Shown piece by piece: positions 10,594 to 34,718 of a stretch of DNA of 64,000 nucleotides. Under the pieces are notes generated by a model. It saw only the letters and a list, made by a program, of their open reading frames with translations. It was not told the DNA's origin and did no database searches. Location: positions 1,364,001 through 1,428,000 of the forward strand of contig NZ_JRMH01000001.1 in the NCBI RefSeq assembly GCF_000803315.1, in the 5' to 3' direction. How positions within the stretch are numbered: the first letter of the stretch is position 1; every line of letters starts with the position of its first letter. The position numbers and the translations under genes are program-made. Origin of the DNA: Pectobacterium actinidiae. GTDB taxonomy: Bacteria > Pseudomonadota > Gammaproteobacteria > Enterobacterales > Enterobacteriaceae.

Positions 10594-10958
10594 GATCGCC
10601 TTCGCCAGTAACTGGCTGATAAAAATAGTGATCCATAATTCTCGAGTTGTCAAGACCACCAAAGTGACCCCATTTTGATCATGCGCTTAACCACATTCAA
10701 CGTATGGAGTAAGGCTAATTCAACCAAATCAACTCTACAGTGGATTGTCTAAGAGTTCCCTTTTCTGTGAAATTAAGTTCGGACATTCGCATAAAATGAA
10801 TTGACAGATCTTGAAGCATGGATAATTTGCATTTTTAACTGGATAAAAAAACAGTGTTGAATTAAGATGTTTGTGATTGATTTTCTGAATTTTTTGTTTC
10901 AAAAAATGATTTCAGCATTTACATTATCTATATGTTTTTTGGACCAATGTGGAATGTT

Positions 10959-12143
10959 ATGGCTGAGTTACATGAGGTTAAACCGAGAGAACAAGCAGGC
11001 AGAGACACATTAGAACGATATAACGCTCAAATTCGAGCGGCCAGTATCGCGTGTTTATCAATTTTAGAAGGTAAAGATGTAAAACGTGTGTTTTGTGAAT
11101 TTCACGACGATTTTGTGGTCGAGAGAGTTGTCGCTAATGATATCCATTATACCTTTGTGCAAGTCAAAACTAAGGAGAAATTACGTGAAATATGGAAACT
11201 TCGAGAAGTTTTTGGAATATTAAAAAGAAAAACTAAAAAAAACCCTCAAACAGATGAGATGATTAGAGATAGTTTTGTTGGTAAACTATTACAACACACT
11301 ATAAATTTTGAAGATACCTGTAAGGAAGTCATTTTTCTTACAAATACCCATATTGACGAAGATATTGAGAATGTCATTGATGATATTATAACCGATGCGT
11401 TTTCCAGTGTACATTGTAAGCTGATTATTGATTCGTTTAATAACTGCTTCATTTCTATCAGAGACGGGAAGAAAAATCTCGAAATTGAAGAAATAAAAGA
11501 AAACCTCAAGAAATTAAAATTTGAAACCGATGTTGAATATATAAAAAGCAAACATGAAACATTTGAGATTCTTGCAAAGGAAAAAATTTTTAAATACAGC
11601 GAAATAGATTTATCACATATTGAAGCTAAGGAGATATTACTTTCTCTTTTAGCTCTTGTTAATAGTAAGTCAAGCGTAAAAATCAACGATTGCTCAAGGG
11701 GCAATATTAAGGATCTGTCTGGAATAGATATAGATGATTTATTGGATGTACTGAGTATCTCCAAAAATGCTTATTATGAGTTTCTTTATAATGGGGATGA
11801 GCATGCATTGAAATCAGCATCTGTGATTGAGAGATTGTTAAGAAAGGCTGGAGCTAGTGAAAGTCAAATTGATTTTTTTGCAAGGTGTAAAATAAAATGG
11901 GATCAGTGGTTAAGAAAAAACAGACATGTAATTTCTGACTTAGATTACATTACTATAGATAGTGAAATAAATTCAACATTAGATAAGCTGACATTTATGC
12001 ATGGTGTTTTATTTCTCTCAGGCTTAAGATCGGTTGTTAATGAATTACATGATTCGTTATTTGAAAATAATTTACTTAATTCTTTAGATAAAGAAGCTTT
12101 GACTGGAAGCCTCTTTGCGAGACTTGTAGAGCGTTCAAAATGA
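10959..12143 (+). CDS. ABC-3C effector: DUF4297-type nuclease-like protein
   Basis: First gene of a three-gene operon. The N-terminal 100 residues match the DUF4297 (dsDNA nuclease-like) domain found in anti-phage systems: REQAGRDTLERYNAQIRAA, then an acidic segment (CEFHDDFVVE) and VQVKTK, which give a plausible PD-(D/E)xK nuclease site. The remaining ~300 residues are helical and AT-rich in codon use. In ABC-three-component systems such proteins are the toxic effectors controlled by the ATPase partner. The frame is open from 10932; ATG 10959 is preferred because GTGGA precedes it at a suitable distance. It overlaps the next gene by 4 bp (ATGA). Nuclease activity is inferred from motifs. Confidence 0.8.
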   Translation: MAELHEVKPREQAGRDTLERYNAQIRAASIACLSILEGKDVKRVFCEFHDDFVVERVVANDIHYTFVQVKTKEKLREIWKLREVFGILKRKTKKNPQTDEMIRDSFVGKLLQHTINFEDTCKEVIFLTNTHIDEDIENVIDDIITDAFSSVHCKLIIDSFNNCFISIRDGKKNLEIEEIKENLKKLKFETDVEYIKSKHETFEILAKEKIFKYSEIDLSHIEAKEILLSLLALVNSKSSVKINDCSRGNIKDLSGIDIDDLLDVLSISKNAYYEFLYNGDEHALKSASVIERLLRKAGASESQIDFFARCKIKWDQWLRKNRHVISDLDYITIDSEINSTLDKLTFMHGVLFLSGLRSVVNELHDSLFENNLLNSLDKEALTGSLFARLVERSK

Positions 12144-12619
12144 ATTACGATGAATTTTTCGATAGTATATCTCAAAAAGATATTAGAATAGATATAAAAA
12201 ATATTGAAAGACAAGAAAGTGTTGGCCTTAATAATGAAGCTCTTTTTCAACTTCCTTTAATAGCTATGATAATACTTTTAATATCTAAAAATAGAGTGAA
12301 ACCAAGAGTAAATGAAGTTGGAGGTTTGGTAGGGAAACTTTTAGAGGATGTCATGCTAGGTTTTAAAGGATCATCACAATTATTAGGATGGTCAGCAAAT
12401 CTTAGGATACGAACCGTTACCGCTTTGAATTTCCTTGAGTCAGTATGTCTAATTATAATAGACGAAAGAAATAACAAGTTAAACATTACGAAATTGGGGA
12501 AGAAAGTTATTGACGAAGTGTTTATATATGAAAGTGATTTGTCTTATAATCTAGCCTTGATAGATAGAGCATACAGGAATTACTGCGTTGATTCAAAATT
12601 GGACGGTGAAATTTTATGA
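12140..12619 (+). CDS. ABC-3C middle component
   Basis: A 159-residue protein between the nuclease-like effector and the ATPase, with 4-bp ATGA overlaps at both ends, so the three are translated together. Its size, its place and its helical segments (ALFQLPLIAMIILLISKNRV; LGWSANLRIRTVTALNFLESVCLI, as in a winged-helix-like fold) fit the middle component of ABC-three-component conflict systems, which links ATPase and effector. No enzymatic motif is visible. The assignment depends largely on context. Confidence 0.7.
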   Translation: MNYDEFFDSISQKDIRIDIKNIERQESVGLNNEALFQLPLIAMIILLISKNRVKPRVNEVGGLVGKLLEDVMLGFKGSSQLLGWSANLRIRTVTALNFLESVCLIIIDERNNKLNITKLGKKVIDEVFIYESDLSYNLALIDRAYRNYCVDSKLDGEIL

Positions 12620-14367
12620 AATTATTAAGTCTCAAAATAAATGGAAGAGATTTTTCAGGTCTTGAATCAGATGAGCTTATTTTTGGGGAGCATATAACTG
12701 AGCTTTATGGCCCAAATGGATGTGGCAAAACTCCATTATTACAATCTATCTCCTATTGCTTAGGGTATCCATGTAAGTTCAGAGAGGATATTTATAAACT
12801 ATGCAAATCGGCCACCCTTACTTTTACCATAGGAAATGATAATTTTAGGGCGACAAGAGATTTTGAACATACTGAGTTCATTTTATCATTAGTATGTAAT
12901 AGCAAAAAATCAATGTTTTATAATCAAGCGGATTACTCTAAATATATCCTAGAAAAGCTATCACTAGCATATCCATCTCTTCTTACAACCCAAAATAAGC
13001 AATCATACCCGTATTTAGCAACTATTTTACCAATTTTTTATTTAGATCAGGATTTCGGATATTCAAAGTTTTATTATTCACCAAGTAATTTTATAAAAGA
13101 TCAATTCTCTGAAATGCTTAGAATTGTATTCTTTTTGCCCGAAAAACATTCCTTCGATGTTAAGAAAAAATCCATTAATATAATGGAGGAAATTAAATAC
13201 CTAGATAACTCGTTGGCTATACAAAGAAGAGATATTGAAATAGCTAAAGAGGCTAATAAAGATAAAGATATAGAATTTATCGATAATTCAATTATAGATC
13301 TAAAAAATGAACTTTCAGTATTGAAAAATAGTAAGTCATTGAAGAATGATTCCCTTCATAGCATTGATGAAATTATAAGAAGACAAAAAGAAAACTTGAG
13401 GGATTTAAACGAAGAACTGAGTTTTATCGCTAGAAGAGAGTCTTCATTAGTTCAGATAATGAAAGAAATTAATACAGAGATCAATACGTTAAACCTTAAC
13501 GAAGAAGCTAAAAGAATATTTCGTTCTTTTGAAGAAATATGTCCGTCTCTTGATTGTAAAATGTTTTCGCGTAGTTCGGAAAGTTATGCAAAACATCTCT
13601 TATATCTTAAAGATCAAATCAAGGATATTGAAAGAAGCTTGAATTTGGATGGAGGACGATATGATCAAATCACACAAGAAATAGCTTATGTTAATAAAAC
13701 TGTCGAAGACCTCAACTCTATGAGAAATGGAATCATAGAAGAAGAGGACCTCTCATCAGTAATTGATGCAATTTCTGCAATAACATCTATGTTGTTTAAA
13801 TTACAGTTAGAAAAAAGTGAGTTACATAAAATATCAATTTTGGAGGATAAGTATGTCGAAATGCTTAATAAGCGGGAAAATGCGCTAGATAAACTGGAGG
13901 GGTTAGGTAAAAATAGACAGTCAATACCACGGCTAACGCGGGTTAAATCTACATTGAGAGAAAAGTACATCAGTTGGCTAAAAGTTTTAAAAACCCCAAA
14001 TATAGATTTTAATATATCATTTGAGCAAGATTTTAGCCCTGTTCTAGGTTTTGAAACTTTAGAGCAACTCAAAGGAAGTACAAAAGTAAGAGCTATACTT
14101 GCTTATCGTAGTGCATTAATTGAAAGCATGCTTGAATTAGAAAATAAATCGTTCATGTTTGCTATATTCGATACGCCTAAACAGCATGAGATACATTACG
14201 AAGATATCAATAACTTCATTTTTAATTTGAAGAAGTTATCTCAAAAGTTTAATTTTCAATTTATATTCTCTTCCACAGAGTATAAGTATTTAGGTGATGA
14301 AAATGATATTTTGCTTACACCAAAATATCCTGGTGAACAGCATGAGATGTTTTTAAGAAGATACTAG
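12616..14367 (+). CDS. ABC-3C ATPase (SMC/RecN-like ABC ATPase)
   Basis: A 583-residue ABC ATPase. Walker A is at residues 32-39 (GPNGCGKT), then a long charged coiled-coil middle (about 180-440), a signature-like KGSTKVRAILAYRSALIE near 485-500, and a Walker B-like FMFAIFDTP near 513-521, where the catalytic Glu is replaced by Thr-Pro. It follows the usual RecN/SMC order of elements. As the third gene of the operon it should sense infection or DNA structure and license the DUF4297 effector. The Asp without a following Glu in Walker B suggests slow hydrolysis, a common trait of switch ATPases (inference). Codon use is strongly AT-rich relative to the flanking host genes. Confidence 0.82.
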   Translation: MKLLSLKINGRDFSGLESDELIFGEHITELYGPNGCGKTPLLQSISYCLGYPCKFREDIYKLCKSATLTFTIGNDNFRATRDFEHTEFILSLVCNSKKSMFYNQADYSKYILEKLSLAYPSLLTTQNKQSYPYLATILPIFYLDQDFGYSKFYYSPSNFIKDQFSEMLRIVFFLPEKHSFDVKKKSINIMEEIKYLDNSLAIQRRDIEIAKEANKDKDIEFIDNSIIDLKNELSVLKNSKSLKNDSLHSIDEIIRRQKENLRDLNEELSFIARRESSLVQIMKEINTEINTLNLNEEAKRIFRSFEEICPSLDCKMFSRSSESYAKHLLYLKDQIKDIERSLNLDGGRYDQITQEIAYVNKTVEDLNSMRNGIIEEEDLSSVIDAISAITSMLFKLQLEKSELHKISILEDKYVEMLNKRENALDKLEGLGKNRQSIPRLTRVKSTLREKYISWLKVLKTPNIDFNISFEQDFSPVLGFETLEQLKGSTKVRAILAYRSALIESMLELENKSFMFAIFDTPKQHEIHYEDINNFIFNLKKLSQKFNFQFIFSSTEYKYLGDENDILLTPKYPGEQHEMFLRRY

Positions 14368-14539: not shown

Positions 14540-14880
14540 TTCACGGAACACCAGATCATCGCCGTTTTGAAGTCCGTCAAAGCCGTACGTACTGTCAAGT
14601 ATTTCTGCTGTGAAGCAGGCATATCTGTGGCCTCGAACTACAACTGGGAAGCTAAGTACAGTGGGATGGAAGCCTCTGATATCAAAAAGATGAAAGGCCT
14701 TGAGGATGAAAACCGTCGTCTCAAAAGGATGTTTACCGAGCTTGGTCGTGAATATGGGGCACTGAAAGATGTCATCGAAAAAAGCTTTAAAACCAACGAT
14801 AAAACGTGAACTTATGGGCTATCTGATCGCAAAAATTTGGCATGAGCATCTGCCGGGCATGCAGGAAGTTATCACTGAGT
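14540..14880 (+). pseudogene. IS3-family transposase OrfA/OrfB remnant
   Basis: The translated DNA reads as a decayed IS3 transposase: FTEHQIIAVLKSV, a helix-turn-helix with EAGISVASNYNWEAKY, then MEASDIKKMKGLEDENRRLK (leucine-zipper region of OrfA). After a stop at 14809 another frame continues with KRELMGYLIAK, the OrfAB junction, and ends at a stop near 14879. There is no DDE catalytic region and no intact ends. It is a relic lying between two defence-type operons and shows that the region has been shaped by insertion elements. Confidence 0.85.
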
Positions 14881-15052
14881 AGGGCAGTCTATTTTTAGCA
14901 GCCCGAACCCCCACCTAAATCCTCTCTTAGAAAAATTATTTGTCAGCAAGATGTAAATACTAATCGAAATTCGATTTTTAATCTTCATTCTTAAAAAATA
15001 ATTGTTAAAAAACAATTACTTATAAAAATAATCCTAATTATTTCATGTTTAC

Positions 15053-15141: not shown

Positions 15142-15825
15142 ATGAGTAACAATAACTACGTTGTTAAAATTTCCGATGATAAATTTGAATTTAGTGATTT
15201 CACCTTTGACGATGCCAAAGTTACAGGTGGAGAGTTGGCTGATGTTTTTGGTGTGCACCCAGTTGAAAATTATAGGGTTTATCAGCAGGTAAAAAATTTA
15301 GAGCTGGAAGAATTAAGGCCTAATGAAAAAATAGATATTTCCAGCCCTAGCGATATTTATATCATAGAAGGCGATGCTAGTTATAATTTTACTGTTGATG
15401 GTCTCAACTTGGTTTGGCCGAGGGCAATCAGGGGGGGTGATATAAAGAAACTTATCAAAAAAAACTCAAGCGATTTCGATCTGTTTTTAGAGTATAAGGA
15501 TGAGGCTGATCAAATAGTTAATGATGATAGGCTTATAGATATTACCCAACCCAGTGTTGAACGCTTTTATACTAAAAAGAAGCCTGACTTATCATTTGAT
15601 ATTTTTGTAGAAGGAATTTTACATAAGTGGTACAAAAAAGAAATTAGTTATGAAGAGGTAGTCACATTGGAAGTGCCTGATTACGCTACCCACCCTGAAA
15701 TAACGTATTCTGTTAAATATAAAAAAGGTCCAGGGGTAAAGCCTGAAGGCATTCTCACTAAAGGCGCTATCATTAATGTAAAAAATGGGATTGAATTCAA
15801 TGTTTCAGAAACTGGTCAGTCATAA
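15142..15825 (+). CDS. Multiubiquitin-domain protein (bacterial ubiquitin-like modifier)
   Basis: A 227-residue protein built of three beta-grasp (ubiquitin-like) repeats: about 4-70 (NYVVKISDDKFEFSDFTFDD... TGGEL), 77-145 (YNFTVDGLNLVWPRAIRGGDI) and 150-222 (SFDIFVEGILHKWYKKEISYE... GIEFNV). The repeated pattern 'short strand, W-x-x-x-x-I-x-G, helix' is that of the Pfam multiubiquitin family. In such operons the protein is the presumed substrate of the E1-like enzyme encoded next. The C-terminus is SETGQS, not Gly-Gly, so activation would need trimming or a different chemistry. First gene of three; overlaps the next. Confidence 0.85.
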   Translation: MSNNNYVVKISDDKFEFSDFTFDDAKVTGGELADVFGVHPVENYRVYQQVKNLELEELRPNEKIDISSPSDIYIIEGDASYNFTVDGLNLVWPRAIRGGDIKKLIKKNSSDFDLFLEYKDEADQIVNDDRLIDITQPSVERFYTKKKPDLSFDIFVEGILHKWYKKEISYEEVVTLEVPDYATHPEITYSVKYKKGPGVKPEGILTKGAIINVKNGIEFNVSETGQS

Positions 15826-16993
15826 TCAAGACTTAAACTTGTTAGTTGAAAAAGGTTATGCGGTAAGCTTCGATAGTAATTATCTGATAATTAGAGATAT
15901 TCCTTACTTAAATGAAAGTAAGGAATTATTGTACGCTGCATTTATATGCAAAATCGTATATAAAGACGCAGAAACTGTTATGCAAGAAGATCATCAGGTT
16001 TTTTTTACCGGAGAATCTCCTTGTGATGTAAACGGCATGTTGATCCCGAATTTAGCAGACCGTCCTGCTACATTAACATTAAGCGAAAATTGTACAGATT
16101 TAATAGTTGAAAGACAATTTTCAAATAAACCCTATGTAAAAGGGGTACCTGGCAACTTTGAAGATTTTTTTAAAAAAATTGAAAGCTATACATCAATAAT
16201 ATCTGGACCAGCTATGGAATTATACAATGTTGATCCTTATACCTTTAATCATAAAATTGATATAGAAGAAAATAGCGTTTTTAAATTCCAAGATACTTTA
16301 ACGAGCAGAGCCGAAATAGTTGAGTTGTCGAATAAATTTAAAAGTGAAATTGTAGCAATTATAGGGCTAGGGGGCACTGGTTCTTATATTCTTGATTTTT
16401 TGGTCAAGACTCCAGTCAAGGAAATAAGGGGGTTCGATTTCGACGATTTCTTCATTCATAATGCTTTCAGGTCTCCTGGGAAAACGGAAAATACCGAGTT
16501 TAAGAAAAAGAAAAGCACTGTATATCAGGAGCGATATGATAATTTCAGACATGGAGTTTTCCTTAAAACACAGAAGATTGGTACAGAATCATTAGAGTTA
16601 CTACAGGGAGTGACTTTTGCTTTTGTCTGTGTAGATAATGGGGAGTCAAGAGCAGAGATATTTGAAGCATTAATTAGTTTAGGAATACCTTACATTGATG
16701 TTGGCATGGGCTTATCTAAGAAATCAGGAACCTTAAGCGGAATGATAAGAACTACTTACTATCCGGAGGGGAGCGCCCAAGAAGTGTTGGATAAAAATCT
16801 TTCTGACTTATCTAAACAAAGGGATAATTTATATCGCACTAATATTCAAATCGGCGAGCTCAATGCATTGAATGCCTGCTTGGCAGTTATAAAATTTAAG
16901 CAATATAAAGGATTTTACTCGAGTGAAGAAGACTTTTACCATACATTATTCAACATATCTGATTTGAAAATTGTATCTGAGTCAATATCATGA
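15800..16993 (+). CDS. E1-like ThiF-family adenylyltransferase with N-terminal DUF6791-type domain
   Basis: About 397 residues. The N-terminal ~155 residues resemble DUF6791, and the C-terminal ~210 are a ThiF/E1 Rossmann domain. Its nucleotide site is GLGGTGS (about residues 189-195), followed by the acidic strand end GFDFDDFFIHNAFRSPG, the usual E1 layout. It should adenylate the C-terminus of a ubiquitin-like protein, most likely the multiubiquitin partner. No cysteine stands out as the thioester residue. The frame opens at 15785; ATG 15800 is preferred for its GGGA ribosome site. It overlaps the upstream gene by 26 bp and the downstream gene by 4 bp. Confidence 0.82.
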   Translation: MFQKLVSHNQDLNLLVEKGYAVSFDSNYLIIRDIPYLNESKELLYAAFICKIVYKDAETVMQEDHQVFFTGESPCDVNGMLIPNLADRPATLTLSENCTDLIVERQFSNKPYVKGVPGNFEDFFKKIESYTSIISGPAMELYNVDPYTFNHKIDIEENSVFKFQDTLTSRAEIVELSNKFKSEIVAIIGLGGTGSYILDFLVKTPVKEIRGFDFDDFFIHNAFRSPGKTENTEFKKKKSTVYQERYDNFRHGVFLKTQKIGTESLELLQGVTFAFVCVDNGESRAEIFEALISLGIPYIDVGMGLSKKSGTLSGMIRTTYYPEGSAQEVLDKNLSDLSKQRDNLYRTNIQIGELNALNACLAVIKFKQYKGFYSSEEDFYHTLFNISDLKIVSESIS

Positions 16994-17397
16994 AAACTTT
17001 TACTATAAAGCTAGTTGAAGTTGATAGTATGCCTAGAGAGCTTGAGCCAAATACCCTTTATTACTCGGAAAGATTTGGTACGGCATCTCATTTATGTGCA
17101 TGTGGATGCGGAGCAAAGATTAGAACCCCAATAGATGTCAACGAGTGGAGTATTGTTAAAACTGAGCAGGGGCCAACTTTACATCCCTCTGTAGGTAATT
17201 GGCAAAAAGAATGTAAATCTCACTATTATATTAGAAAAGGTAAGATAGTATGGTGCGGCGCTTGGACTGAAAAGCAAATCCAAGAAGGAAGGTATAGAGA
17301 GCAACAAGCCCGAATTGACCATTATAATCGCATTTACTCCAAGCAGAGCGTGATTAATAAAATTTGGTTGTGGATTAAAGATAAACTTGGCTTATAA
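16990..17397 (+). CDS. DUF6527 family protein
   Basis: A 135-residue protein recurrently found beside multiubiquitin/ThiF genes. It has a compact cysteine cluster CACGCGAKI (about residues 36-44), further cysteines and histidines (KECKSHYYI, VWCGAW) that could form a zinc site, and a basic, aromatic C-terminal tail (IWLWIKDKLGL). It may be the conjugation- or substrate-selecting partner, but no biochemical role is known to me. Its ATG overlaps the E1 stop (ATGA), so it is part of the same operon. Confidence 0.78.
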   Translation: MKTFTIKLVEVDSMPRELEPNTLYYSERFGTASHLCACGCGAKIRTPIDVNEWSIVKTEQGPTLHPSVGNWQKECKSHYYIRKGKIVWCGAWTEKQIQEGRYREQQARIDHYNRIYSKQSVINKIWLWIKDKLGL

Positions 17398-21384: not shown

Positions 21385-21596
21385 CGATAAAAAACCGGTT
21401 AAGGTAAACGGGAACGTAACAAAAGGCTCTCTGCCGTTAGACTCATGTGTGCAATCACGAACAGCTATTGTTTTCATGAGGTTCAGCATCACTAGTCATT
21501 TTTTAAGCCAGAACCCCACACTTCAATAGATTGATGCTTGCCCGACAGCACATTCAGACATAAATTTGTGAGGTCATTAAACCTACAGGAGCGGAT

Positions 21597-22511
21597 GTGG
21601 AATATTTCAGCGACAAAGAAAGAGGCCCCGTTCAACGGATAAATAACGAAGTAACAACTAAAGTCTGGGCTGGGCTTGTTTCATACATTAATGTTCTGGT
21701 AAACAACGGATACTTCGGTAAAGACTTTCCTGAAGAATGTCCCGATGGGCAGGGATGCGTAGGCACCGAGGTCAAAGACCTCAAAGCCGCGTTACAGGCT
21801 GAGATACCAAATCTTGACTGGCCATTGGCAACAGAAGTTGAATCAGAGGAATCGTCATCTTGGTCTAGGGAGATGATACCTTTTGTTCCAAACTATCTGG
21901 ATGTAATGGATTTACTCCAGTTCTGCTATAAACATGTGGCCATGCCTGTTAAAGGGGGCTATCACAGCTATTTCAGGCATTACCACTTTGACGATTTTCA
22001 AATTGAAGCTGGTAAAGAAGAATTTAGGGAAAAGGTAAACACAATATTTGCCAGAAACGGCCTTGCTTACGAGCTTCTTGTATCAGGTGATATCATTCGA
22101 ATGCTAAGCCCGGAACTGAAGCAAATGATGGCAAGCATAAGCATTCCTGTAGAGAAAGAGTTACGCAGCATGCTCATGCGCGCGAATGAAAAAATAATCA
22201 ACTATGATGTCACCATTCGTTATGATGCACTTAAAGAGCTTTGGGACTTTTGGGAGCGGCTCAAAAGCATATCTTATCCAACTGACAAAAGAGAGTCTGT
22301 GAAGAAGTTACTTGATGCGGCAGCCCATACATCGGAATTTAGATCGATTTTAGAAATAGAGGCAAAAGCACTTACAGATATTGGAAATAGTTATTTCATT
22401 CGCCATACCGAAATGAAACAGATCAAGATTCAGGAAAGTGTTCATATCGAATATCTATATCAGCGCATGTTCAGCTTGATACATCTTTTACTAAAAACAC
22501 TTCCAAGTTGA
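21597..22511 (+). CDS. Hypothetical protein, Abi-like (AbiJ N-terminal-type start)
   Basis: A 304-residue soluble protein starting at GTG 21597 behind AGGAG. The start MEYFSDKERGPVQRINNEV, with TTKVWAGLVSYI and a CPDGQGC stretch, resembles the N-terminal domain seen in AbiJ-type abortive infection proteins. The C-terminus (IRHTEMKQIKI... EYLYQRMFSLIHLLLK) is helical and HEPN-like. I rate this as a family resemblance, not an identification. It precedes a zincin metalloprotease gene by 87 bp on the same strand, so they probably form a two-gene defence-type unit. Confidence 0.6.
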   Translation: MEYFSDKERGPVQRINNEVTTKVWAGLVSYINVLVNNGYFGKDFPEECPDGQGCVGTEVKDLKAALQAEIPNLDWPLATEVESEESSSWSREMIPFVPNYLDVMDLLQFCYKHVAMPVKGGYHSYFRHYHFDDFQIEAGKEEFREKVNTIFARNGLAYELLVSGDIIRMLSPELKQMMASISIPVEKELRSMLMRANEKIINYDVTIRYDALKELWDFWERLKSISYPTDKRESVKKLLDAAAHTSEFRSILEIEAKALTDIGNSYFIRHTEMKQIKIQESVHIEYLYQRMFSLIHLLLKTLPS

Positions 22512-22598
22512 TATTATTGCTTTTTCAGCAGGCTATGGATATAAAGAAAGCTGATGAATATTTTCAGGAAGACAAGTTGCTTGATAGGAGAGAAGTGA

Positions 22599-23927
22599 AT
22601 GGATGATCGTCCAGTCGTAGATTTTAACGCAATAAGTCATGCCAAAATAAGCACTGACTGGGATATCATTAGTCTAGTTATAAGCAAAGATGATATAGAT
22701 GATATAGTAGTTAGAGCTGCTGCATTAACAATTCAAGCTGGTGAATCACCCCTTTTCATGGAAGCAACCATCCTAGATTTGGAAAGTTTATGCACACTAG
22801 ACTATCGTCAATTGCCAGAGCTAACAAAAGACCAAGTAGTTTTGATGGAAAAAAGGTTATCAGGTGAGACAGACTCGGTAATAGACATGTTTTTTCTTGA
22901 GCTTAGATGTACAATCACACTCGGATGGAAGGAGCCAGAATCTAATGATGATATAAAATCTATTAGTTATCACAATAGCACTTTTAATAATCTCATCTAC
23001 AGGAAAGCTAATTTTTTAGCATCTAATTTCGGAAGTAATAGATACAATATGCCTTATTGGCTGCGGCTCAGTCAACTCAGAATTATGAGTCACATACCAA
23101 ATAAGTTGATCAATGAAGCACAACTTGATGAGATATTCTTTTTCCCTATCCACCGGAGAGGCCTCAATGCAACAAGTTGTTCAATCAACGGACAAAAATA
23201 CGTTACAGCCAACTTTGGACTCAATGGGATCCTTCATGAACTTAACCGATTTATTTATCACTTCCAGTCAACAGAGATTTATAGCCTGGAGAATAGAGAG
23301 AAGCGTGCGTTACCTGAGATAATTCCAGTCGTCTTGTATTTTTTAACATCATGTAGCCCAAGGTATTTCTATCCACAATTTCTTTTTGGTAAATCGAGCT
23401 GGAAAGTAAAAACTTTCACTGATTATCAACTTGATTTCATAATCCTACATGAAATATCCCATCATATCCTTGAACACCCTCAACGAGTCAGTTTGATAAA
23501 GGATTATGTTGAACGTCAGAACAAAATTAAGCAGTTTGAATATGAAGCCGATACATTAGCAAATGTACTTATGGCTTCGTCGATTATAACGGAAGGAAAT
23601 GACGAACCACGAAGTAAGCATTCAGTCATTGTTTATGCGGACGCAATTGAGGCGGTCGAGCTTCTTTTTGAACATATGAACTTCATTGAAGAAATGGAGG
23701 AGATCATACGTCATAGATTCGGGTCATTTATAAATATTTCATCAACTAAAGGTGCACATCCGGAAGCATATACTCGCCTTGAGTATTTTCATAGAATTTT
23801 TGATAAGAATAGACAACTTTCTGAAACTGCACTGTATGCAAGGAATTTATATAACAGAATGACCAATTATTGCCTTGAGCTTTCTAATGATGAATTGGCG
23901 TCATTGATGAGAGATTATCTTGTCTGA
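22599..23927 (+). CDS. Putative zincin metallopeptidase (HEXXH), unknown target
   Basis: A 442-residue protein whose only clear catalytic signature is HEISH at residues 284-288 (IILHEISHHILEHP), followed about 25 residues later by FEYEADTLAN, where Glu or Asp could be the third zinc ligand. This layout is that of single-domain zincins such as ImmA/IrrE-like or Lit (U49)-like peptidases. The N-terminal 250 residues are not recognised. It lies 87 bp after the Abi-like gene with an AGGAG ribosome site. In phage-exclusion systems such proteases cleave a host or phage protein; that role is inference here. Confidence 0.68.
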   Translation: MDDRPVVDFNAISHAKISTDWDIISLVISKDDIDDIVVRAAALTIQAGESPLFMEATILDLESLCTLDYRQLPELTKDQVVLMEKRLSGETDSVIDMFFLELRCTITLGWKEPESNDDIKSISYHNSTFNNLIYRKANFLASNFGSNRYNMPYWLRLSQLRIMSHIPNKLINEAQLDEIFFFPIHRRGLNATSCSINGQKYVTANFGLNGILHELNRFIYHFQSTEIYSLENREKRALPEIIPVVLYFLTSCSPRYFYPQFLFGKSSWKVKTFTDYQLDFIILHEISHHILEHPQRVSLIKDYVERQNKIKQFEYEADTLANVLMASSIITEGNDEPRSKHSVIVYADAIEAVELLFEHMNFIEEMEEIIRHRFGSFINISSTKGAHPEAYTRLEYFHRIFDKNRQLSETALYARNLYNRMTNYCLELSNDELASLMRDYLV

Positions 23928-24013
23928 TCTAGTGTGAGCTCAACTGTTGAATAAAAGTGTTGCATCCATTGGTTGAACTCACTGTACGAAGCGACAAGCT
24001 ACTAAGTTGAAGA

Positions 24014-24030
24014 TCCGCTGTAAGCGAGGA
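24014..24030 (+). repeat. Right copy of 17-bp dispersed repeat
   Basis: TCCGCTGTAAGCGAGGA, one mismatch from 21026-21042, 87 bp after the end of the zincin gene. See the left copy. Confidence 0.55.
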
Positions 24031-24071
24031 ATGGGCATGCGACTCACACGCTTAACTAGCAGTTTTTTTCA

Positions 24072-25412
24072 TCATCGCGATGAATTGGGATTGATGTTAA
24101 AAATTGAAAAGTTGATGTAATCCTCGGGATAAAGATGATAGGTAAATGCATTGAATGAATTATTTTCATCAAAGATCAGCGAATATTCATTTGATCTCAA
24201 ACTTGATAAATCATTCGATATATTATCAATGCCTAGAGGCTTTAAAAATTTTTCAAATGTTTTTGTGTAAGAGTCTATCACGTCAAAATTAATTACTTCA
24301 TATGATTTTCCTTCAACTAGGTTACTTGAGCCATTCATTATTTCACATCTCCCATTGCTAATGGCGCAGTATATCTTGGCATGAAAGTCATTTTTATTTT
24401 TTAATTCGCCAATCAACTCGGATCCCAAGTTAAAACTTTCCATCTGCTCATAGCTTATTTCATTTGTTTTTGAAAAGGACTCTTTAAACACTTTAGATTG
24501 ACCATTCCTTACTAACATGGAGGTATTTTCTGGATTTAAACGGTTTAGCAAATTAAGCCAAGAATCTACTTTCCCTTGGCTTTTAAGGAACTGATGGCCA
24601 ACAAAAGGAGATATTATGTAGATTTTCGCATAAAGGAAATTCCACCTAGCAATCAATTTATAAAGCCATGTCATTATGGTGGTTTTCGAATAAACGCCAA
24701 AAATCACATCTGATAGTTCTCTTGAACCAAATATATTTACAATTGAGAATGCTTGTGCTTCGAATGAGTTATTTTCTTGATATCGACTTACAAAATTTGC
24801 ATCATGTTTTTTCCCGCATTTACATTCAAAAGCAAACTTAATCATGATATTATTTGGAGCCGGCCCTCTAGATTGAGAGAGGGACCAATTTGTGAACTCC
24901 CAGTGTTTTTTTGCTATTACTTCCCATTTACTCTTTAGAAGCTCAAATGAAATTATTTCCAGATTCTCTTCACAGTCATCACATATGTAAAGAGGGTGGT
25001 TGTAAAAATCGTAATCCGTATTCCTCTCTGTTAATACAGTGTTTTTATCAATGAAGTCTGTTAGCAGTGGTAGATCTTTGTATTTTAACAGTTTGGCTTC
25101 ATCATTGTCAGAGTTTATATAAAAATCTGTTTTCTCCCAACCGCTACTAGGTCCAGAGTAGTCTGGATTTACGATATTAACTTTAAATATTCCAGCACAT
25201 TTATCACAGGTCCCAATCATCACTCCATCCTCTTCTATATCAGGAATAATGATGCTCCTTCCTGGAAGTGTAGTTGAAGATGTGTGAACTTCATGATACT
25301 CAATCGTAGTTGTACAGTGAGGGCACTTACCATGAAAATGCATGGTTTTATCACGGTCTATAAGGTTAAATTTCATTCTCCGTAAGAATTCATGACTAAT
25401 CTCAAATTCCAT
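24072..25412 (-). CDS. Zinc-ribbon protein with C-terminal PLD-like nuclease domain
   Basis: A 446-residue protein. The N-terminal half contains several zinc-ribbon-like cysteine pairs: CPHC (about 30-33), CDKC, CDDC and CKCGKKH. The C-terminal half has the single phospholipase D-type signature HAKIY with His344 and Lys346, then NGSSNL with Asn360. That is the H-x-K-(x)n-N half-site used by PLD-superfamily nucleases, which act as dimers. It may be a DNA- or RNA-cutting effector with zinc-binding recognition modules. It is a stand-alone gene in the AT-rich defence-like region; no named system fits. Confidence 0.62.
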   Translation of the reverse strand: MEFEISHEFLRRMKFNLIDRDKTMHFHGKCPHCTTTIEYHEVHTSSTTLPGRSIIIPDIEEDGVMIGTCDKCAGIFKVNIVNPDYSGPSSGWEKTDFYINSDNDEAKLLKYKDLPLLTDFIDKNTVLTERNTDYDFYNHPLYICDDCEENLEIISFELLKSKWEVIAKKHWEFTNWSLSQSRGPAPNNIMIKFAFECKCGKKHDANFVSRYQENNSFEAQAFSIVNIFGSRELSDVIFGVYSKTTIMTWLYKLIARWNFLYAKIYIISPFVGHQFLKSQGKVDSWLNLLNRLNPENTSMLVRNGQSKVFKESFSKTNEISYEQMESFNLGSELIGELKNKNDFHAKIYCAISNGRCEIMNGSSNLVEGKSYEVINFDVIDSYTKTFEKFLKPLGIDNISNDLSSLRSNEYSLIFDENNSFNAFTYHLYPEDYINFSIFNINPNSSR

Positions 25413-25614: not shown

Positions 25615-26664
25615 TCAATTGTCAATGTGTATTCCTGCATCGCCAGAACGAGCCATGGTGCTACGTGCTGCCGCAATACGCCTGCGAGCAATTTCCACAT
25701 AATCCGCTTCGCGCTCAATACCGATGAAACAGAAACCTTCCATCACCGCGGCTTTGCCGGTGCTTCCACTTCCCATAAAGGGATCAAGTACAGTGCCGCC
25801 CGGTGGAGTAATAAGGCGGCAAAGGTAACGCATCAGCTCCGTGGGCTTTACACATGGATGATTGTTACCATCACCACGGTCCTTTCTGTTGGCTTTCGCA
25901 CAATAAAAGAACCGACTGGCGCTGCTAATTTCTATCTGCTGAGAGGTATCAGGGAACATAGCAAGTACTGTATCACTGCCATCATGGATAAGATTGGCAG
26001 GCCAGCGACCATCAGGGCTTCCTTGTCTGGCGATACCACCATCACCTTTACTTCTTCCGCGCCACATATGGTTGGGTTCAGATCCACCCGGTCCATTTGG
26101 ATAATCATAGGGTGATTCCCCTTTTACCAGAGGGATCCTGCATTCGCTGATGTTCAGAGCGCCGGTACCATGCGCGCACAGATTCGATCCTATAGACCCC
26201 CTGAATGGCTTACGGGCAAGGGTAATCGGCTCCAGTGCGGGCTTTAACGCGTGGTGAGATTTAGGAAAACCCGAACCGTATACCCAACCCAGCATTCCGT
26301 CATGTCCAAATGCCGCGTCCAGCAATTTGAGCTGGTCCGACGATAAACTTTCAATTAGGGCATGAGCAGCATTATTGGTCTCATAGAGAAATACAATCAT
26401 GTCACGTATTTCAAAGCCCGCATCCTCAATACGTGCTGCCATCCGGTGCTGAGTACGCGATCCCGCGAAGGACAGCAGATGACCACCGGGTTTGAGTACG
26501 CGCAGACATTCTTCCCAGATGGCTTGTGAAGGAACATCATAGTCCCATGCCTTACCCATGAATTTAATACCATAGGGCGGGTCGGTCACGATGCTGTCCA
26601 CCGAGTTGCCCGGAATATTGCGCAGTACGTCAAGGCAGTCGCCATGGCTCAGAACGTCATGCAT
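25615..26664 (-). CDS. Site-specific DNA methyltransferase (beta-class, DPPY)
   Basis: 349 residues from ATG 26664, which has GGGAGGGA upstream; the open frame reaches 26799 but that part overlaps mobC. Motif IV is DPPY at about 28-31 (VTDPPYGIKFMGKAWDYD). Motif I comes at the C-terminal end (DPFMGSGSTGKAA, about 294-306). DPPY first and FxGxG last is the beta-class order of N6-adenine/N4-cytosine methyltransferases. It overlaps the end of mobC by 8 bp and is carried by the conjugative operon. No restriction partner is present, so it may serve as an anti-restriction or regulatory orphan enzyme. Confidence 0.9.
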   Translation of the reverse strand: MHDVLSHGDCLDVLRNIPGNSVDSIVTDPPYGIKFMGKAWDYDVPSQAIWEECLRVLKPGGHLLSFAGSRTQHRMAARIEDAGFEIRDMIVFLYETNNAAHALIESLSSDQLKLLDAAFGHDGMLGWVYGSGFPKSHHALKPALEPITLARKPFRGSIGSNLCAHGTGALNISECRIPLVKGESPYDYPNGPGGSEPNHMWRGRSKGDGGIARQGSPDGRWPANLIHDGSDTVLAMFPDTSQQIEISSASRFFYCAKANRKDRGDGNNHPCVKPTELMRYLCRLITPPGGTVLDPFMGSGSTGKAAVMEGFCFIGIEREADYVEIARRRIAAARSTMARSGDAGIHIDN

Positions 26665-27460
26665 GGTATTCCCTCCCGTCATCTCCATGAGCTGATGAAG
26701 AAGGGGCTTCCTGCTTATAACTGATACTCCCTTCCAGTTCATCAATTGTGCGGAACAGAAACATCTCGCGGTGCTTCGCATCAAACGGAACGGGAACACT
26801 GTTTCTCATCACCGTCCTGATGCTGCCAAACAGCCTGACCAGTGATTCTTTCGTTTTATCATCCGGCATAACATACATCGCATAGTGCCAGCGTCCGGCG
26901 TCGCTGGCGGCAAGATGACTGTTAATAATGCTGATGTAACGGGCGCGGGTTTTCATTGAGCGCTCTGTTTCCACCGCAACGATGGCACCGCTGCTTAAGG
27001 TAATAATGCCGTCCGGTCGGTGCCGGATACCTTGGTACCGCGCCATAAACTCTCCCCGGTCGCCGTTAAGCCAGCCTGTGCCGCCTTTTTCCTCCAAGGC
27101 GATCCTGACCCGCTGGTTTAACAGGCGATGCTCCAGCGTCCAGTGTCTGAGTTTGCCCGGCTCAAAATAGGCAGGGAAAACCTTGTCATTAGCGCTGACC
27201 ACCATCGCTAGTCCCTGCATGGTGATCCCCCACAATGATTTTTTTCCGGTCAATATCGGGTATTCATGTTTATTCAGGAAGCCCATCGCAACCGCTTTAT
27301 TAAGCAGGTTATACATCGCATGGTTATGTTTTCCTTTATAGCCGACAACTTTTTTTAAGGTCCGGAAATCAGAGAACGTTTCTTCCTTGAGAAAATACAG
27401 TAAGGCCCGCATTCTCCGTTTTGCGGCTTCATTTCTTTCAGCAACGTTATGAACAAGCAT
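26657..27460 (-). CDS. mobC: MOBC-family relaxase
   Basis: 267 residues from ATG 27460, which has GAGG 7 bp upstream; a GTG at 27472 overlapping the mobB stop is an alternative. The protein matches the CloDF13 MobC/replication-relaxation family, with an N-terminal winged helix (about 15-85) and a restriction-endonuclease-like core with HRPDGIITL (Asp) and VAVETE (two Glu). MOBC relaxases nick oriT with a metal-dependent PD-(D/E)xK-like site rather than the HUH site of other relaxases (established for CloDF13). It sits directly after mobB and before the methyltransferase, as in ICEKp/ICEEc1-type elements. Confidence 0.83.
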   Translation of the reverse strand: MLVHNVAERNEAAKRRMRALLYFLKEETFSDFRTLKKVVGYKGKHNHAMYNLLNKAVAMGFLNKHEYPILTGKKSLWGITMQGLAMVVSANDKVFPAYFEPGKLRHWTLEHRLLNQRVRIALEEKGGTGWLNGDRGEFMARYQGIRHRPDGIITLSSGAIVAVETERSMKTRARYISIINSHLAASDAGRWHYAMYVMPDDKTKESLVRLFGSIRTVMRNSVPVPFDAKHREMFLFRTIDELEGSISYKQEAPSSSAHGDDGREYHA

Positions 27461-27468: not shown

Positions 27469-29205
27469 TCACAGGTTAATGGAGGGTTTGTGGATCTGGC
27501 TTTCTTTTTCGGTATGCAGGTTTTTTGTTTGCTCAAATGAAAGCAGGTCGATATATTGCTTTTTCGCCGGTATGTGGAATAGTTTGGTTGCCTTCGCCAG
27601 ATCATTCTGGGTAAAAACAAAACCAACAAACTGGGGGAGGTTAAGCAACATGTTGCTGTCTATGTAATAGCGTTCAGCCTGGCGGATCATCCTGTCAGTT
27701 TCTATTTTCTCCGTCAGGGATATATCCGTTTTAACTTTTCTCATTTCATCGTCTACCAGAATAGAGCCTGTCATCCTTGCCACCCAGTCGGCGGTATCCG
27801 GATCGCGAAGGCGGTAAACCAGCATAAACTTGCAGTTCTCAATCACTGAACCGGCAACGGCGTCACCCTCCAGATCTGCCGGACAGTCATACAAATCTTT
27901 TACCGACTGGTGAGCCATGATGATATGCACGCCTTTATCCCTCGCTGCGCCAAGTCCTTCAAGCGCAGGGCGGGACAGGTGATACTTGAGTTCATCAAGG
28001 AAAATAGCGACCGGGCGAGGTTTGCCTTTTATCCGGTCACGCATTTCGGCTATCTGAATCAGGCGAGTTAAAATCATTCGCTGAGCCGATATGATTTTCT
28101 GATTACGCATTGAGCCGATGATGTAGCAACATCCGCCTTCATCAAAAATGGTCTTTAAGGAAAATCCGTTGCGGGCATTAATGGAACTCACTAAAGCGAT
28201 TTCTTCAAGCTCGCCATAAAAAGCAGGCACATCTTCACTGAGTGATTTCACAAAGTCAGTGTTAAATAAGTCGCGTAACGTCATTCCCTTTTCGTAAATA
28301 GCTGCCGTATTTCTGGCTGCGCGACGGTCGGCGATACGGTAAAAGTCAGCACCTTCGCCTTTTTTACCCAGGCTGAAACCGGCATTAAACAGCTCCTCCA
28401 GTTGTTCATGAGAAATATCAGCCAGTAAATCAAGTTGGAAATTAAGGTCATTCAGGTTAATAAGAACAAATTGTTTTCCGGCTTTCTGACAGGCCTCCCG
28501 CAGAACATGTGGTGCCCACTCATCATTTTTTGGGTCCTCTACAAATACCCCTTCACCTGAAAGTATTGCCTGATAAAGCAGGATGCAGGCGCTCACCCCT
28601 TTACCGGAGCCGGTGGTGCCGATAAGATCAGCGTGTTGAGCTTGAAATTCTTCGGCGGTGATATATTGCGGCTGGTCATCTTTATCCAGCCCGATAAAAA
28701 TACCGTTATTCAGCGCAATATAATCCAACGGATTATACGCAATGCTGTCAGGTAACATGTTTCTGACTTCACGAACATCTGTTCTGACATTTCTTTCCAG
28801 TTTGCTTTTTTTAATCATCCGATGTTTTAAACTGTCGATTTCACCCGCCAGCAGCCTTCGGGCAGAAATATGAAAAGCCAGACCGGCAAGGGTAAAACCG
28901 ACCGTCAGTATCCAGAGTGATAATCTGAGCAGAATGTTATTGTCGAGTACTTTGAAGAAAAAACTCAGCCCCTGAATGGTCAGTGGTGACAGGGTGCCAA
29001 ATATGAAAAAGAAGGTGGATACACCCGCTACCGATTTTAACCAGAGGGGGGCATTTTTTCTTTCTTCACGTGGCAGATGAAAGATGAATGGCAGCGTCAG
29101 CCCGGCAAATACGGACAATATTACCGGGTTGTGTTGTAGCCAGAGCAGAAAAAAAGAAAAGGCATCCGAAAAGGCATTCAGTCTTTGCATCAGATGGATT
29201 CCCAT
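27469..29205 (-). CDS. mobB: Type IV coupling protein (VirD4/TraG-like, CloDF13 MobB type)
   Basis: A 578-residue ATPase. Two N-terminal hydrophobic segments (about 28-45 and 60-115) anchor it in the inner membrane. Walker A is GTTGSGKG at 196-203 and Walker B is VAIFLDELKYHL near 385-396. It should link the MobC relaxosome to the VirB channel and pump DNA. GGAG lies 9 bp before ATG 29205. It overlaps mobC through CTGTGAGG and is preceded by the hairpin-rich oriT candidate. Its length and pairing with mobC match CloDF13-like coupling proteins better than the larger TraD. Confidence 0.88.
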   Translation of the reverse strand: MGIHLMQRLNAFSDAFSFFLLWLQHNPVILSVFAGLTLPFIFHLPREERKNAPLWLKSVAGVSTFFFIFGTLSPLTIQGLSFFFKVLDNNILLRLSLWILTVGFTLAGLAFHISARRLLAGEIDSLKHRMIKKSKLERNVRTDVREVRNMLPDSIAYNPLDYIALNNGIFIGLDKDDQPQYITAEEFQAQHADLIGTTGSGKGVSACILLYQAILSGEGVFVEDPKNDEWAPHVLREACQKAGKQFVLINLNDLNFQLDLLADISHEQLEELFNAGFSLGKKGEGADFYRIADRRAARNTAAIYEKGMTLRDLFNTDFVKSLSEDVPAFYGELEEIALVSSINARNGFSLKTIFDEGGCCYIIGSMRNQKIISAQRMILTRLIQIAEMRDRIKGKPRPVAIFLDELKYHLSRPALEGLGAARDKGVHIIMAHQSVKDLYDCPADLEGDAVAGSVIENCKFMLVYRLRDPDTADWVARMTGSILVDDEMRKVKTDISLTEKIETDRMIRQAERYYIDSNMLLNLPQFVGFVFTQNDLAKATKLFHIPAKKQYIDLLSFEQTKNLHTEKESQIHKPSINL

Positions 29206-29542
29206 CGCAGTGATCTCCGGTCTGATTTCGGTGTGAAGGGCGCATCACATGGACGTCATCGATGGACGTTAAACCCCACGCCCATACGCTACGCCTATTG
29301 ATGACGCCCATAAAAGGATGAAAAGAAATGAACGTCTCCGACGCTCATGCCCGTTATCCGCGCTTTCAGAAAACAGCCGACCAGTGGTCGTCAGTCTCCT
29401 GAAAAGCCCGAATGACGGGCAACGGCGTGTGACATTACGCTCGGGCTGGACGCTCTCCCTGCATGTCACATGGGGGTAATGTCGTGGCTGGACGCCGCGC
29501 CAAAATCCCCAGGGTCAAAGGCGGCACACCGTCGCCCGCTAC

Positions 29543-29634
29543 GCGCGACCAACCCCTTTAAGACGCGCGTTTCGCCTGTTTTTTCTCGCAAGCTCCAAAA
29601 AACGGGAACGCTGCTTTAAAGGGGTTGGTCGCGC
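29543..29634. repeat. Perfect 19-bp inverted repeat with 54-nt spacer
   Basis: GCGCGACCAACCCCTTTAA at 29543-29561 and its exact complement TTAAAGGGGTTGGTCGCGC at 29616-29634. The length and exactness exceed normal terminators, and the spacer itself contains partly complementary T- and A-runs. A good candidate for a relaxosome-binding site or oriT hairpin. Confidence 0.85.
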
Positions 29635-29822
29635 CTGATCGGTAATATTCCCCGCTGGGGCGGGAAATATTACCTGGCTTGACGGTGTGCGGGGCAAGCC
29701 CCCCAAATAAACCGCTGTCGTGGGCGACAGCTTTTCGCTCGCTGGGGCGGCGAAATTTATTCGGCTCCCCCCGGCCTGCTCAATTCGCTTTGGGCGAATG
29801 TTCGCAGGTGGGCGCGGTGCCT

Positions 29823-29922
29823 GAAAATTAGCAATTTCTGCGAAATTGAATTTTCTGTCCGCGCTCCACATGCTTATTTTACGGCTTAGCAATTTCTCCG
29901 AAATTGAAGCCAAAAATAAGCA
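29823..29922. repeat. Two long hairpins sharing a 23-bp direct repeat
   Basis: A 23-bp block beginning TTAGCAATTTCT occurs at 29828-29850 and 29886-29908 with one mismatch. Each block is itself a stem (CAATTTC/GAAATTG) and is extended by flanking complementary arms: GAAAATT/AATTTTC around the first, TGCTTATTTT/AAAATAAGCA and GGCTT/AAGCC around the second. Possible protein-binding iterons or RNA hairpins. Confidence 0.75.
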
Positions 29923-29984
29923 CGCCTGAAACCCGCTGTCTGCCAGTCTGTGGCGTCATTCGAGACATTATCAATGTTTGTGAT

Positions 29985-30290
29985 TCACATCTGTTCGCGG
30001 GCTATTTCAGCCCGGCATTCCCGTTCCGCGTTTAATGCCGCATGGTACGTTTCATCATCGATTTTCGTTCCCTGACTTTCGGCATACCGTCTGAGCTTCT
30101 CTGCGTCCGATTCATTAAGCTGTGATAGCTGATCTCGCAATAAACCGACAAATCGGCTCTCATATATTTCGTAATAAAGCCCACATCCGTGATGTGCTCT
30201 TTTTGACAGAGAATCATAGATACACGTGACAGATATTCTGTCGTGATGAGTTGAGTGAATATTGGCAATAAACAGGTCTTCTTTATTCAC
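29985..30290 (-). CDS. Small conjugation-region hypothetical protein
   Basis: A 101-residue, charged, cysteine-containing protein without signal peptide or membrane segment. The C-terminal half (SQLNESDAEKLRRYAESQG, then ECRAEIAREQM) is helical. It lies between the trbM-like gene and the oriT candidate, on the same strand as the virB and mob genes, so it probably belongs to the transfer operon. No family recognised. Confidence 0.6.
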   Translation of the reverse strand: MNKEDLFIANIHSTHHDRISVTCIYDSLSKRAHHGCGLYYEIYESRFVGLLRDQLSQLNESDAEKLRRYAESQGTKIDDETYHAALNAERECRAEIAREQM

Positions 30291-30338
30291 TTTTGTTTCT
30301 CCATGCAGGGAATATATTAAGATAACGGCGAGGATTTA

Positions 30339-30641
30339 TTACCCTCTGAACCTGCCAAAGCTGGAAAGGATTTTATTCACCGCCTCCGGGTCAGCACTGG
30401 CGCATTCTCCCAGAAAGGCTTTTCTGGCATTCAGTGTGTGGTTGGGTAAAAAACCGTGCTTATTTTTTTTAACGATATTAAAGAAAACATGCTCCGCAGA
30501 ACGACATTCACTTCCTCCGCTGTTTCCGGTTGCTTTACCGTACATACAAAGCACCACTTCGCACGGGTCGGCTGCGAAAGAATAAACAGGTGTTCCGGCG
30601 ACAATGCACAGCATTGCCGCCACAATAACGAAGTATTTCAT
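30339..30641 (-). CDS. TrbM/KikA-family conjugal transfer protein
   Basis: A 100-residue exported protein. The signal peptide MKYFVIVAAMLCIVAGTPVY is cleaved near SFAA-DPC. The mature part is cysteine-rich (DPCEVVLCMYG, GSECRSAEHVFF, GECASAD), the pattern of the TrbM/KikA family encoded near conjugation genes of IncN and IncP plasmids. It acts in the periplasm; its exact role in transfer is unknown. It lies downstream of the lipoprotein gene at 30689 in the same direction. Confidence 0.78.
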   Translation of the reverse strand: MKYFVIVAAMLCIVAGTPVYSFAADPCEVVLCMYGKATGNSGGSECRSAEHVFFNIVKKNKHGFLPNHTLNARKAFLGECASADPEAVNKILSSFGRFRG

Positions 30642-30688
30642 GATGGATTCTTTAGCCTATGATTAATTTCAGAATGTGAGAGGAGGAT

Positions 30689-31087
30689 TTAATGTGAAAA
30701 ATAAATGCGGGTGTCGCTGCATGTCAGGCATCCAGAGACAGGTTGATATTCAATAACGCCTTTTGCGCCATATTGACGCAGCCAGTCTTTTGCAGTAAAG
30801 AATTCTGCGCCTGATGGCGCTGCAACAACAATACGTGCAGAGTGGGCGACCGCGTAAAATACGGCGGGCGTCCAGTGTGTCTCATTAAAATTCCGTGCGT
30901 GAATGGATAATAACCATTTATATTTAATCATCGGAGAAGGAATAATAACCGGGTTGTCCCGCCATTGCGGTAAACCGGTATTCACTGACTGGCCCGGTTT
31001 ATCCCATTCAACAGGAACCGGTAGCGGGGGTGAAGAACAGCCAGAAATCACCAGTAAAAATAACAAAATATGGATAACTTTCATCAT
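30689..31087 (-). CDS. Cag12-family transfer lipoprotein
   Basis: A 132-residue lipoprotein with signal MMKVIHILLFLLVI and lipobox ISGC (Cys17). The mature part (PVEWDKPGQSVNTGLP, WLLSIHARNFNETHWTPAVFY) matches the Cag12-like family found beside VirB11 genes in enterobacterial conjugative elements. It is probably anchored in the outer membrane and associated with the secretion channel. Its ATG overlaps the end of virB11 by 4 bp, so they are translated together. Confidence 0.72.
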   Translation of the reverse strand: MMKVIHILLFLLVISGCSSPPLPVPVEWDKPGQSVNTGLPQWRDNPVIIPSPMIKYKWLLSIHARNFNETHWTPAVFYAVAHSARIVVAAPSGAEFFTAKDWLRQYGAKGVIEYQPVSGCLTCSDTRIYFSH

Positions 31088-32103
31088 GCTTTCATCTCCT
31101 CAAAAAAGGTGCTGCGGTGCAGTGGCCGGAAATAAATATCATTCATCCGGCGCACATTACCGTCCAGGTCGATACTCACGATAACGTCCAGACTGTCCAG
31201 TACCTTGCGTAACATGAAGGTGTATGGGAGTCGGGCGCATTGCGGGTTTTCATAACAACGGGTAATAAACCCGTCTACCGCTTCCATTGCTGAACCGGCA
31301 TGGACAGAGGTCATACTGCCTTCATGGCCGGAGCCAGTTATCTTGAGAAAATCCCAAGCCTCACCGCCACGCACTTCGGTTAATAGTATGCGGTCGGGAT
31401 TCATGCGGTAATTCCAGCGCAGCAGGCTGGCGGGCGTCACAATTGACCCTTTTTCATCTGCCGATTCCGACGGATAAAAAAGGTGGACGTAGTTTTTATG
31501 AATAAATAAGGTGATTTCCGGATTATCTTCAATGGTCGTAATACGCAGATGGCGGGGGATATAACCAATCAGCATCTTCATATAGGTGGTTTTACCGGTA
31601 CTGGTTTCCCCGGCCACCGCAATGGTTTTGCCGTATTCCACACATTTCTCCATAAAGCGCGGAATGTCCTTCGCGTTATATAATGCCAGTAATTCCTGAT
31701 CGTGCGTCTGCGTTTTTTCCGTGCCCGTCACCCGATTATAAAACCCGGCGGCGATATAGTCCTGATGCGGGATTTGCACCTGTGAGGGTTTACGCAGGGT
31801 GATCGACACCGTGTTACGCTCGCAGGCCGGGGGCACAATAACCTGACAACGTTCGCCGGATTCCAGCGTGGCTGACAGCCCCGGCTTGATATCTTCGATA
31901 TTGTCGCCGTGATGCTTCGCGAGGCATCTGGCAAAGTTGTAGCAGCCCTCATAATCCAGCGGAACGGTGTGCTGTTCCCAAATGCCGTTAATTTTGGTGA
32001 AAAGCTCACCCGGGCGGTTGACGGCGATCTCTGTCAGTCCCCGGCGATCCAAAAAATCGCCAAAAAATCGCTGCTTATAGCGGTCGAGAGAGAGGTTTTT
32101 CAT
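31084..32103 (-). CDS. virB11: VirB11 traffic ATPase
   Basis: A 339-residue hexameric ATPase of the secretion channel base. Walker A is GETSTGKT at 165-172, followed by the His/Asp boxes (TTIEDNPEI, LLTEVRGGEAWDFL) and GSGHEGSMTSVHAG. It powers pilus assembly and substrate transfer at the inner membrane. ATG 32103 is chosen because AAGGAT lies 6 bp upstream; the open frame extends 13 codons further without a ribosome site. It is separated from virB10 by a short gene and an antisense gene, so its transcription must cross the latter or start nearby. Confidence 0.92.
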   Translation of the reverse strand: MKNLSLDRYKQRFFGDFLDRRGLTEIAVNRPGELFTKINGIWEQHTVPLDYEGCYNFARCLAKHHGDNIEDIKPGLSATLESGERCQVIVPPACERNTVSITLRKPSQVQIPHQDYIAAGFYNRVTGTEKTQTHDQELLALYNAKDIPRFMEKCVEYGKTIAVAGETSTGKTTYMKMLIGYIPRHLRITTIEDNPEITLFIHKNYVHLFYPSESADEKGSIVTPASLLRWNYRMNPDRILLTEVRGGEAWDFLKITGSGHEGSMTSVHAGSAMEAVDGFITRCYENPQCARLPYTFMLRKVLDSLDVIVSIDLDGNVRRMNDIYFRPLHRSTFFEEMKA

Positions 32104-34699: not shown

Positions 34700-34718
34700 C
34701 TGCATGACTCCTCAGTTG

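Follow-up and report, generated by a model that had tools for sequence, protein, structure and literature searches.

A three-gene multiubiquitin, E1-like and DUF6527 operon of Pectobacterium actinidiae and its likeness to the Bub pathway

How might a ubiquitin-like system work with neither an E2 nor a JAB gene beside it and with no Gly-Gly at the end of its modifier? The question is raised by three genes on the forward strand (15142..17397) of a 64,000-nucleotide stretch of Pectobacterium actinidiae (contig NZ_JRMH01000001.1, positions 1,364,001 to 1,428,000; the whole stretch is called the window here), which encode a multiubiquitin protein (mUb), an E1-like protein with an N-terminal DUF6791 domain and a DUF6527 protein. 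The preferred reading, with a probability of about 0.5, is that this trio is a mobile ubiquitin-like conjugation operon, a sister of the bacterial Bub pathway, in which transfer needs neither E2 nor cysteine and DUF6527 stands in the place of JAB. The trio is real and conserved, and it is better known than the initial annotation, made from the window sequence alone, had held.

The trio and its conservation

The mUb gene (15142..15825) encodes a 227 aa protein in which Pfam recognises three Multi_ubiq stretches (E 2.8e-30), at about 15190-15345, 15382-15579 and 15595-15813. Residues 6-226 align with PDB entry 9cd2 ('ZDHYS365 multi-ubiquitin domain protein', E 5.4e-30), and this near end-to-end alignment bears out the triple beta-grasp modifier first proposed. 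The E1-like gene (15800..16993) encodes 397 aa, with DUF6791 at residues 10-166 (15827..16297; Pfam E 3.6e-39) and a ThiF adenylation domain match (16331..16750; E 4.4e-13) that includes the GLGGTGS motif. The third gene (16990..17397), overlapping the second by 4 nt, encodes a 135 aa protein that matches Pfam DUF6527 (E 2.9e-23). The three overlapping frames described earlier (15142-15825, 15785-16993 and 16990-17397) are open and intact, and only the E1 start has moved: Met15785, which gives 402 aa, was dropped for the later Met15800, the start conserved in relatives. With this start the mUb and E1 genes overlap by 26 nt (15800..15825), as they do in the relatives.

Relatives were drawn from GTDB contigs, further genomes, plasmids (10 of the 115 records with a match were retrieved), viral contigs and E. 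coli. Besides the window this gave 25 DUF6791 loci with a flank of at least 300 nt before and at least 450 nt after; 8 of the 33 distinct DUF6791 matches were left out for a short flank, mostly the same loci as shorter pieces. The window is not among the 25 because its copy (L001) is short of 3' flank, and the window itself shows all the features. L007 is not among the matches either, as its E1 match starts only at residue 235 and the upstream frame runs into another gene. An mUb gene lies upstream of the DUF6791-E1 gene in all 25 loci, which are not all independent given the close pairs L011/L012 and L030/L147. A DUF6527 gene lies downstream in 24 by script and in 25 with L037, whose copy fell outside the script's search range and was added from a separate result. 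The three genes are thus found together in other genomes, and the earlier remark that no E2 or JAB gene stands beside them extends to the relatives, none of the 25 loci being matched by the hidden Markov models (HMMs) of Bub E2 and Bub JAB.

The trio has a sparse and patchy distribution. DUF6791 occurs in 8 of the 398 genomes of the phylum, its own included, and the trio DNA in one of the 25 genomes of the genus, which is again its own. A version of the trio is present in 3 of 5426 E. coli genomes, where its DNA is 83 percent identical to a Klebsiella plasmid copy; no E. coli genome searched yielded a trio of the window type. The ten plasmid loci span Alphaproteobacteria, Gammaproteobacteria, Bacillota, Bacteroidota and Cyanobacteriota, and the trio is carried between bacteria on mobile DNA. 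Genes annotated as WYL or ImmA/IrrE lie within the flank of three of these ten loci (L024, L025, L031).

Three loci have features of their own. On a Methylomonas plasmid (L029, 6154-8062) an IS256 insertion appears to interrupt the DUF6527 gene, which was counted as present. A trio-bearing viral contig (L036) contains a second multiubiquitin-like frame at 315-549 on the reverse strand, and one E. coli trio (L147) lies between fimH, with an IS1 in between, and an integrase adjoining tRNA-Leu.

Relation to Bub and other systems

The Bub system of Citrobacter (BubA, BubB, BubCD) shares with the trio a multi-unit ubiquitin-like protein (Ubl), a BubD-like E1 core and an adjacent DUF6527 gene, and BubCD is the first-ranked relative of the trio E1 by sequence profile and by fold. 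Bub loci comprise mUb, Prok-E2_E (fused or separate), JAB-E1 and DUF6527, the last annotated in ten of ten plasmid loci, and the E1 of an Enterobacter IncHI2 plasmid matches Citrobacter BubCD with E 1.2e-253. Judging from these contents and the BubCD match, the trio looks like Bub minus E2 and JAB: whereas Bub has Prok-E2_E (BubB) and a JAB domain (BubC), the trio is without both and has DUF6791 at the E1 N-terminus instead. The Ubl ends also differ, being T-x-[QKR]-S in the trio and NNG in the BubA PDB construct. Conjugation in the Bub pathway reportedly proceeds through oxyester chemistry. One Bub-like operon (L120) has an APH/TCAD9-type protein between its E1 and DUF6527 genes.

The layout has been described before. 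In the part of Iyer 2006 that treats class 6e (PMC1779556), the class is composed of a polyUbl, an inactive E2/RWD-like domain, a JAB fused to the E1 and a metal-binding protein, and row 6e adds that some E1s carry a distinct 'domain X' in the place of JAB. This variant (polyUbl, X-E1 and metal-binding Y) has the same layout as the trio, and by position only domain X would correspond to DUF6791 and Y to DUF6527. To call the system poorly described was therefore too strong, as the layout is already in that section and the E1, mUb and DUF6527 are those of a sister of Bub, a pathway already characterised. The open-licence papers searched included none naming DUF6527, DUF6791, PF20137 or PF20590, and an excerpt of a SUMO review names Bub in passing (PMC12687455).

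Other systems are more distant. Residues 6-147 of mUb align with the Ubl-BilA structure (8u38) of the Bil system, whereas the trio E1 profile puts BubCD first. The likeness to Type II CBASS-type E1-E2 and to 6A-MBL cap2_3 is confined to the E1 part and to weak matches (PADLOC E1-E2, E 1.5e-5; NCBIfam 6A-MBL_cap2_3, E 0.0085); no E2 part is matched and the trio is without a cyclase gene. PADLOC, in which these weak E1-E2 matches are the only ones of the E1, has no model for mUb or DUF6527.

The modifier tail and the E1-like protein

The window mUb ends in FNVSETGQS, lacking Gly-Gly as first observed. Its last residue is Ser in all 25 other loci, preceded by Q (12), K (7) or R (6), and position -4 is T in 24 of them and S in one. 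In 24 of the 25, an E1 start codon precedes the end of the mUb stop codon by exactly 26 nt, and the plasmid annotation adopts this start in ten of ten loci; translational coupling of mUb and E1 is inferred. In L006 the overlap is only 1 nt and the tail TNRS is still kept, which suggests a constraint on the tail as protein sequence. The aligned part of 9cd2 reads ...VTQTDK, reaching residue 221 of 222, whereas the BubA PDB chain ends ...DVNNG, and 9cd2 is therefore probably a trio-type protein and not BubA.

The trio E1s have no conserved cysteine, and Tyr345 sits in the disordered crossover loop. Pfam identified DUF6791 in 20 of 20 members tested and, in the same 20, no E2 and no JAB family. 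The invariant residues of the domain include H65, P74, G79 and S108. Its model runs through two helices, strands at 21-25, 28-37, 43-54 and 66-69, short strands and a helix at 123-142, an order that an E2 or RWD fold would allow, and in a profile comparison with Prok-E2_E it is in register from the first helix on; the case for a hidden E2 is suggestive only. Searched against the PDB at E <= 10, the DUF6791 profile gave two irrelevant matches only, and in a fold search with the whole E1 model the match list was filled by the E1 part. A hidden JAB was also considered and rejected, since hhalign against Bub JAB aligned 7 columns with a score of 12.4 and gave no signal.

In the genome of P. actinidiae as a whole no match to PF14462 (Prok-E2_E) was found; a Prok-E2_B search of it also gave none, but neither did its controls. 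Two JAB matches are present, both away from the trio. A JAB gene adjoining a 410-aa ThiF gene (G000:C1:223441-224984) apparently belongs to a separate system.

The DUF6527 protein

Residues were counted in 87 distinct DUF6527 cores, each with at most 15 gaps in 69. Of these, 37 (26 with DUF6791, 11 without) belong to loci that have an E1 or mUb gene; the other 50, of which 47 come from viral contigs and 3 from phage records, are partnerless in having neither gene, a status judged on flanks no longer than 5 kb, often ended by contig edges, and dependent on HMM sensitivity. A separate count kept fragments and put L146 (a Bub operon) and L080 under 'no E1', hence its differing figures.

The window protein has C36, C38, C40 and C75 as well as S67 and H78. 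All 87 cores have C36 and C40, while C75 is invariant in the 37 operon cores and has Tyr in its place in 23 of the 50 partnerless ones. S67 and H78 are likewise invariant in 37 of 37 operon cores. Among the partnerless cores the 67/78 pair is S-H in 45, C-H in two, and S-Y, M-R and S-gap in one each; a change from Ser to Cys that leaves the His unaltered is one that a nucleophile could tolerate. H34 is present in all 50 partnerless cores and is another residue in 8 of the 37 operon cores. One E. coli record at NCBI names its copy 'ubiquitination-like system serine protease family protein'. The structural model is confident (pLDDT 93); its VIA rows cover mainly the C-terminal helix, and one viral protein in BFVD matches with E 1.0e-11.

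A C-terminal extension (residues 89-135; 17254..17394) is typical of trio copies. The median number of residues past the core, by open reading frame and with some trio loci recounted as cut pieces, is 52 in the trio (range 20-73), 10 in Bub and other E1-linked copies (1-86) and 1 in partnerless ones (1-38). The last 20 residues are net positive in 28 of 28 trio copies and contain Trp in 26. They are more amphipathic than shuffles (p < 0.05) in 8 of the 28, the window copy having p 0.215; the tail is a possible membrane or partner anchor.

Partnerless genes include L148, L149, L203 and viral contigs among L041-L067 and L152-L202, with Erwinia (249 kb) and Burkholderia (322 kb) phages among them.

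Proposed mechanism and alternatives

In the conjugation pathway favoured here the three-unit Ubl would be produced in step with the E1 through the overlapping genes. To judge from its fold and conserved residues, the E1 would adenylate the C-terminal Ser of the Ubl and would then transfer it without a cysteine, probably via a hydroxyl such as that of Tyr345 or of Ser108 in DUF6791, the domain that would take over the job of the missing E2. DUF6527 is a probable zinc-stabilised protease, a serine hydrolase that, on the strength of its conserved residues and one NCBI product name, would process or remove the Ubl instead of JAB. If true, this would be a minimal three-gene ubiquitin-like system, a test of the need for an E2 or a cysteine in conjugation and of the activation of a non-glycine tail. 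The operon may plausibly serve in the response to stress or to phages. A bolder version, in which the E1 with DUF6791 passes the Ser-ended Ubl from adenylate to target via hydroxyl esters and stand-alone phage DUF6527 proteins act as counter-deconjugases, is improbable as a whole; the partnerless viral genes would be a direct test of phage counter-action on Bub-type pathways.

Several observations weigh against this pathway. The segment with Tyr370 in Bub falls in a gap of the trio E1s, so its equivalence with Tyr345 is only a guess. The DUF6791 score against Prok-E2_E (18.7) was reached by 9 of 200 column shuffles, with 15.8 for the reversed profile, and the global score by 80 of 200. MAFFT places F107-S108 of DUF6791 opposite FS in the JAB motif of Bub, which makes DUF6791 a possible decayed JAB, and the JAB gene elsewhere in the genome could act in trans. 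At E <= 0.001 the DUF6527 model matches no fold in the PDB, which leaves the protease role to the residues and the database name, and two other E. coli records name the protein DUF6527 only. The single S-Y core (L157) counts against a strict Ser-His dyad.

That core, with S67 and Y at 78, also fits a doubtful but best surviving alternative, in which DUF6527 would serve as a zinc adaptor for the choice of targets and not as a protease. Target recognition was proposed for the zinc-finger protein sll6052 of Synechocystis in a passage of Iyer 2006 (PMC1779556), and C36, C40 and C75 are invariant in the operon cores; however, S67 and H78 are just as invariant there, partnerless cores replace S67 by Cys twice with H78 retained and lose both in one, and there is the serine protease record.

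Somewhat less likely is self-assembly, in which the E1 would cap mUb or link it to itself, giving a filament or chain and not tagged targets. Three-unit bacterial Ubls reportedly form Ca-dependent filaments. The three beta-grasp units, the solved relative 9cd2 and the lack of an E2 gene beside the trio in the 25 loci would suit this. However, mUb length is variable and close to one unit in L025 (85 aa) and L027 (81 aa), so a three-unit filament is no constant of the trio.

The fold matches of the E1 model include MccB and ThiF, and adenylation of a small molecule or peptide with mUb as carrier might be considered, but BubCD ranks first by sequence profile as well as by fold and no recurring biosynthesis genes were seen in the ten annotated plasmid loci, which makes it very unlikely. 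Least credible is functionless, decaying passenger DNA, which the transposase helix-turn-helix (HTH) remnant just upstream (14567-14809) and the single occurrence in the genus might suggest, as the three frames are intact and the overlaps and conserved residues are retained.

Surroundings of the trio

A scan for promoters and terminators gave signals no commoner than in shuffles. The mobile, defence-rich setting described initially was recovered. The Lamassu operon LmuA-LmuC-LmuB (10932..14367, forward strand; PADLOC E 8e-169, 6e-68 and 2e-253), just upstream and outside the system, looks complete. Besides the transposase remnant there is an ArdC domain among the Pfam matches, a gene with an AbiJ N-terminal domain at 21597-22511 (PADLOC PDC-S32) and, up to about 42 kb, VirB/VirD4-type conjugation genes (27469-42478; Pfam), namely VirB3-VirB4, VirB6, VirB8, VirB9, VirB10, a VirB11-like ATPase and the coupling protein. 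An N6/N4 DNA methylase gene lies at 25615-26799, and 21405-25000 is about 99 percent identical, piecewise, to Klebsiella plasmids. An Rfam match to the small RNA isrN (14789-14930, reverse strand, 78 bits) overlaps the end of the HTH remnant and may be of repeat origin.
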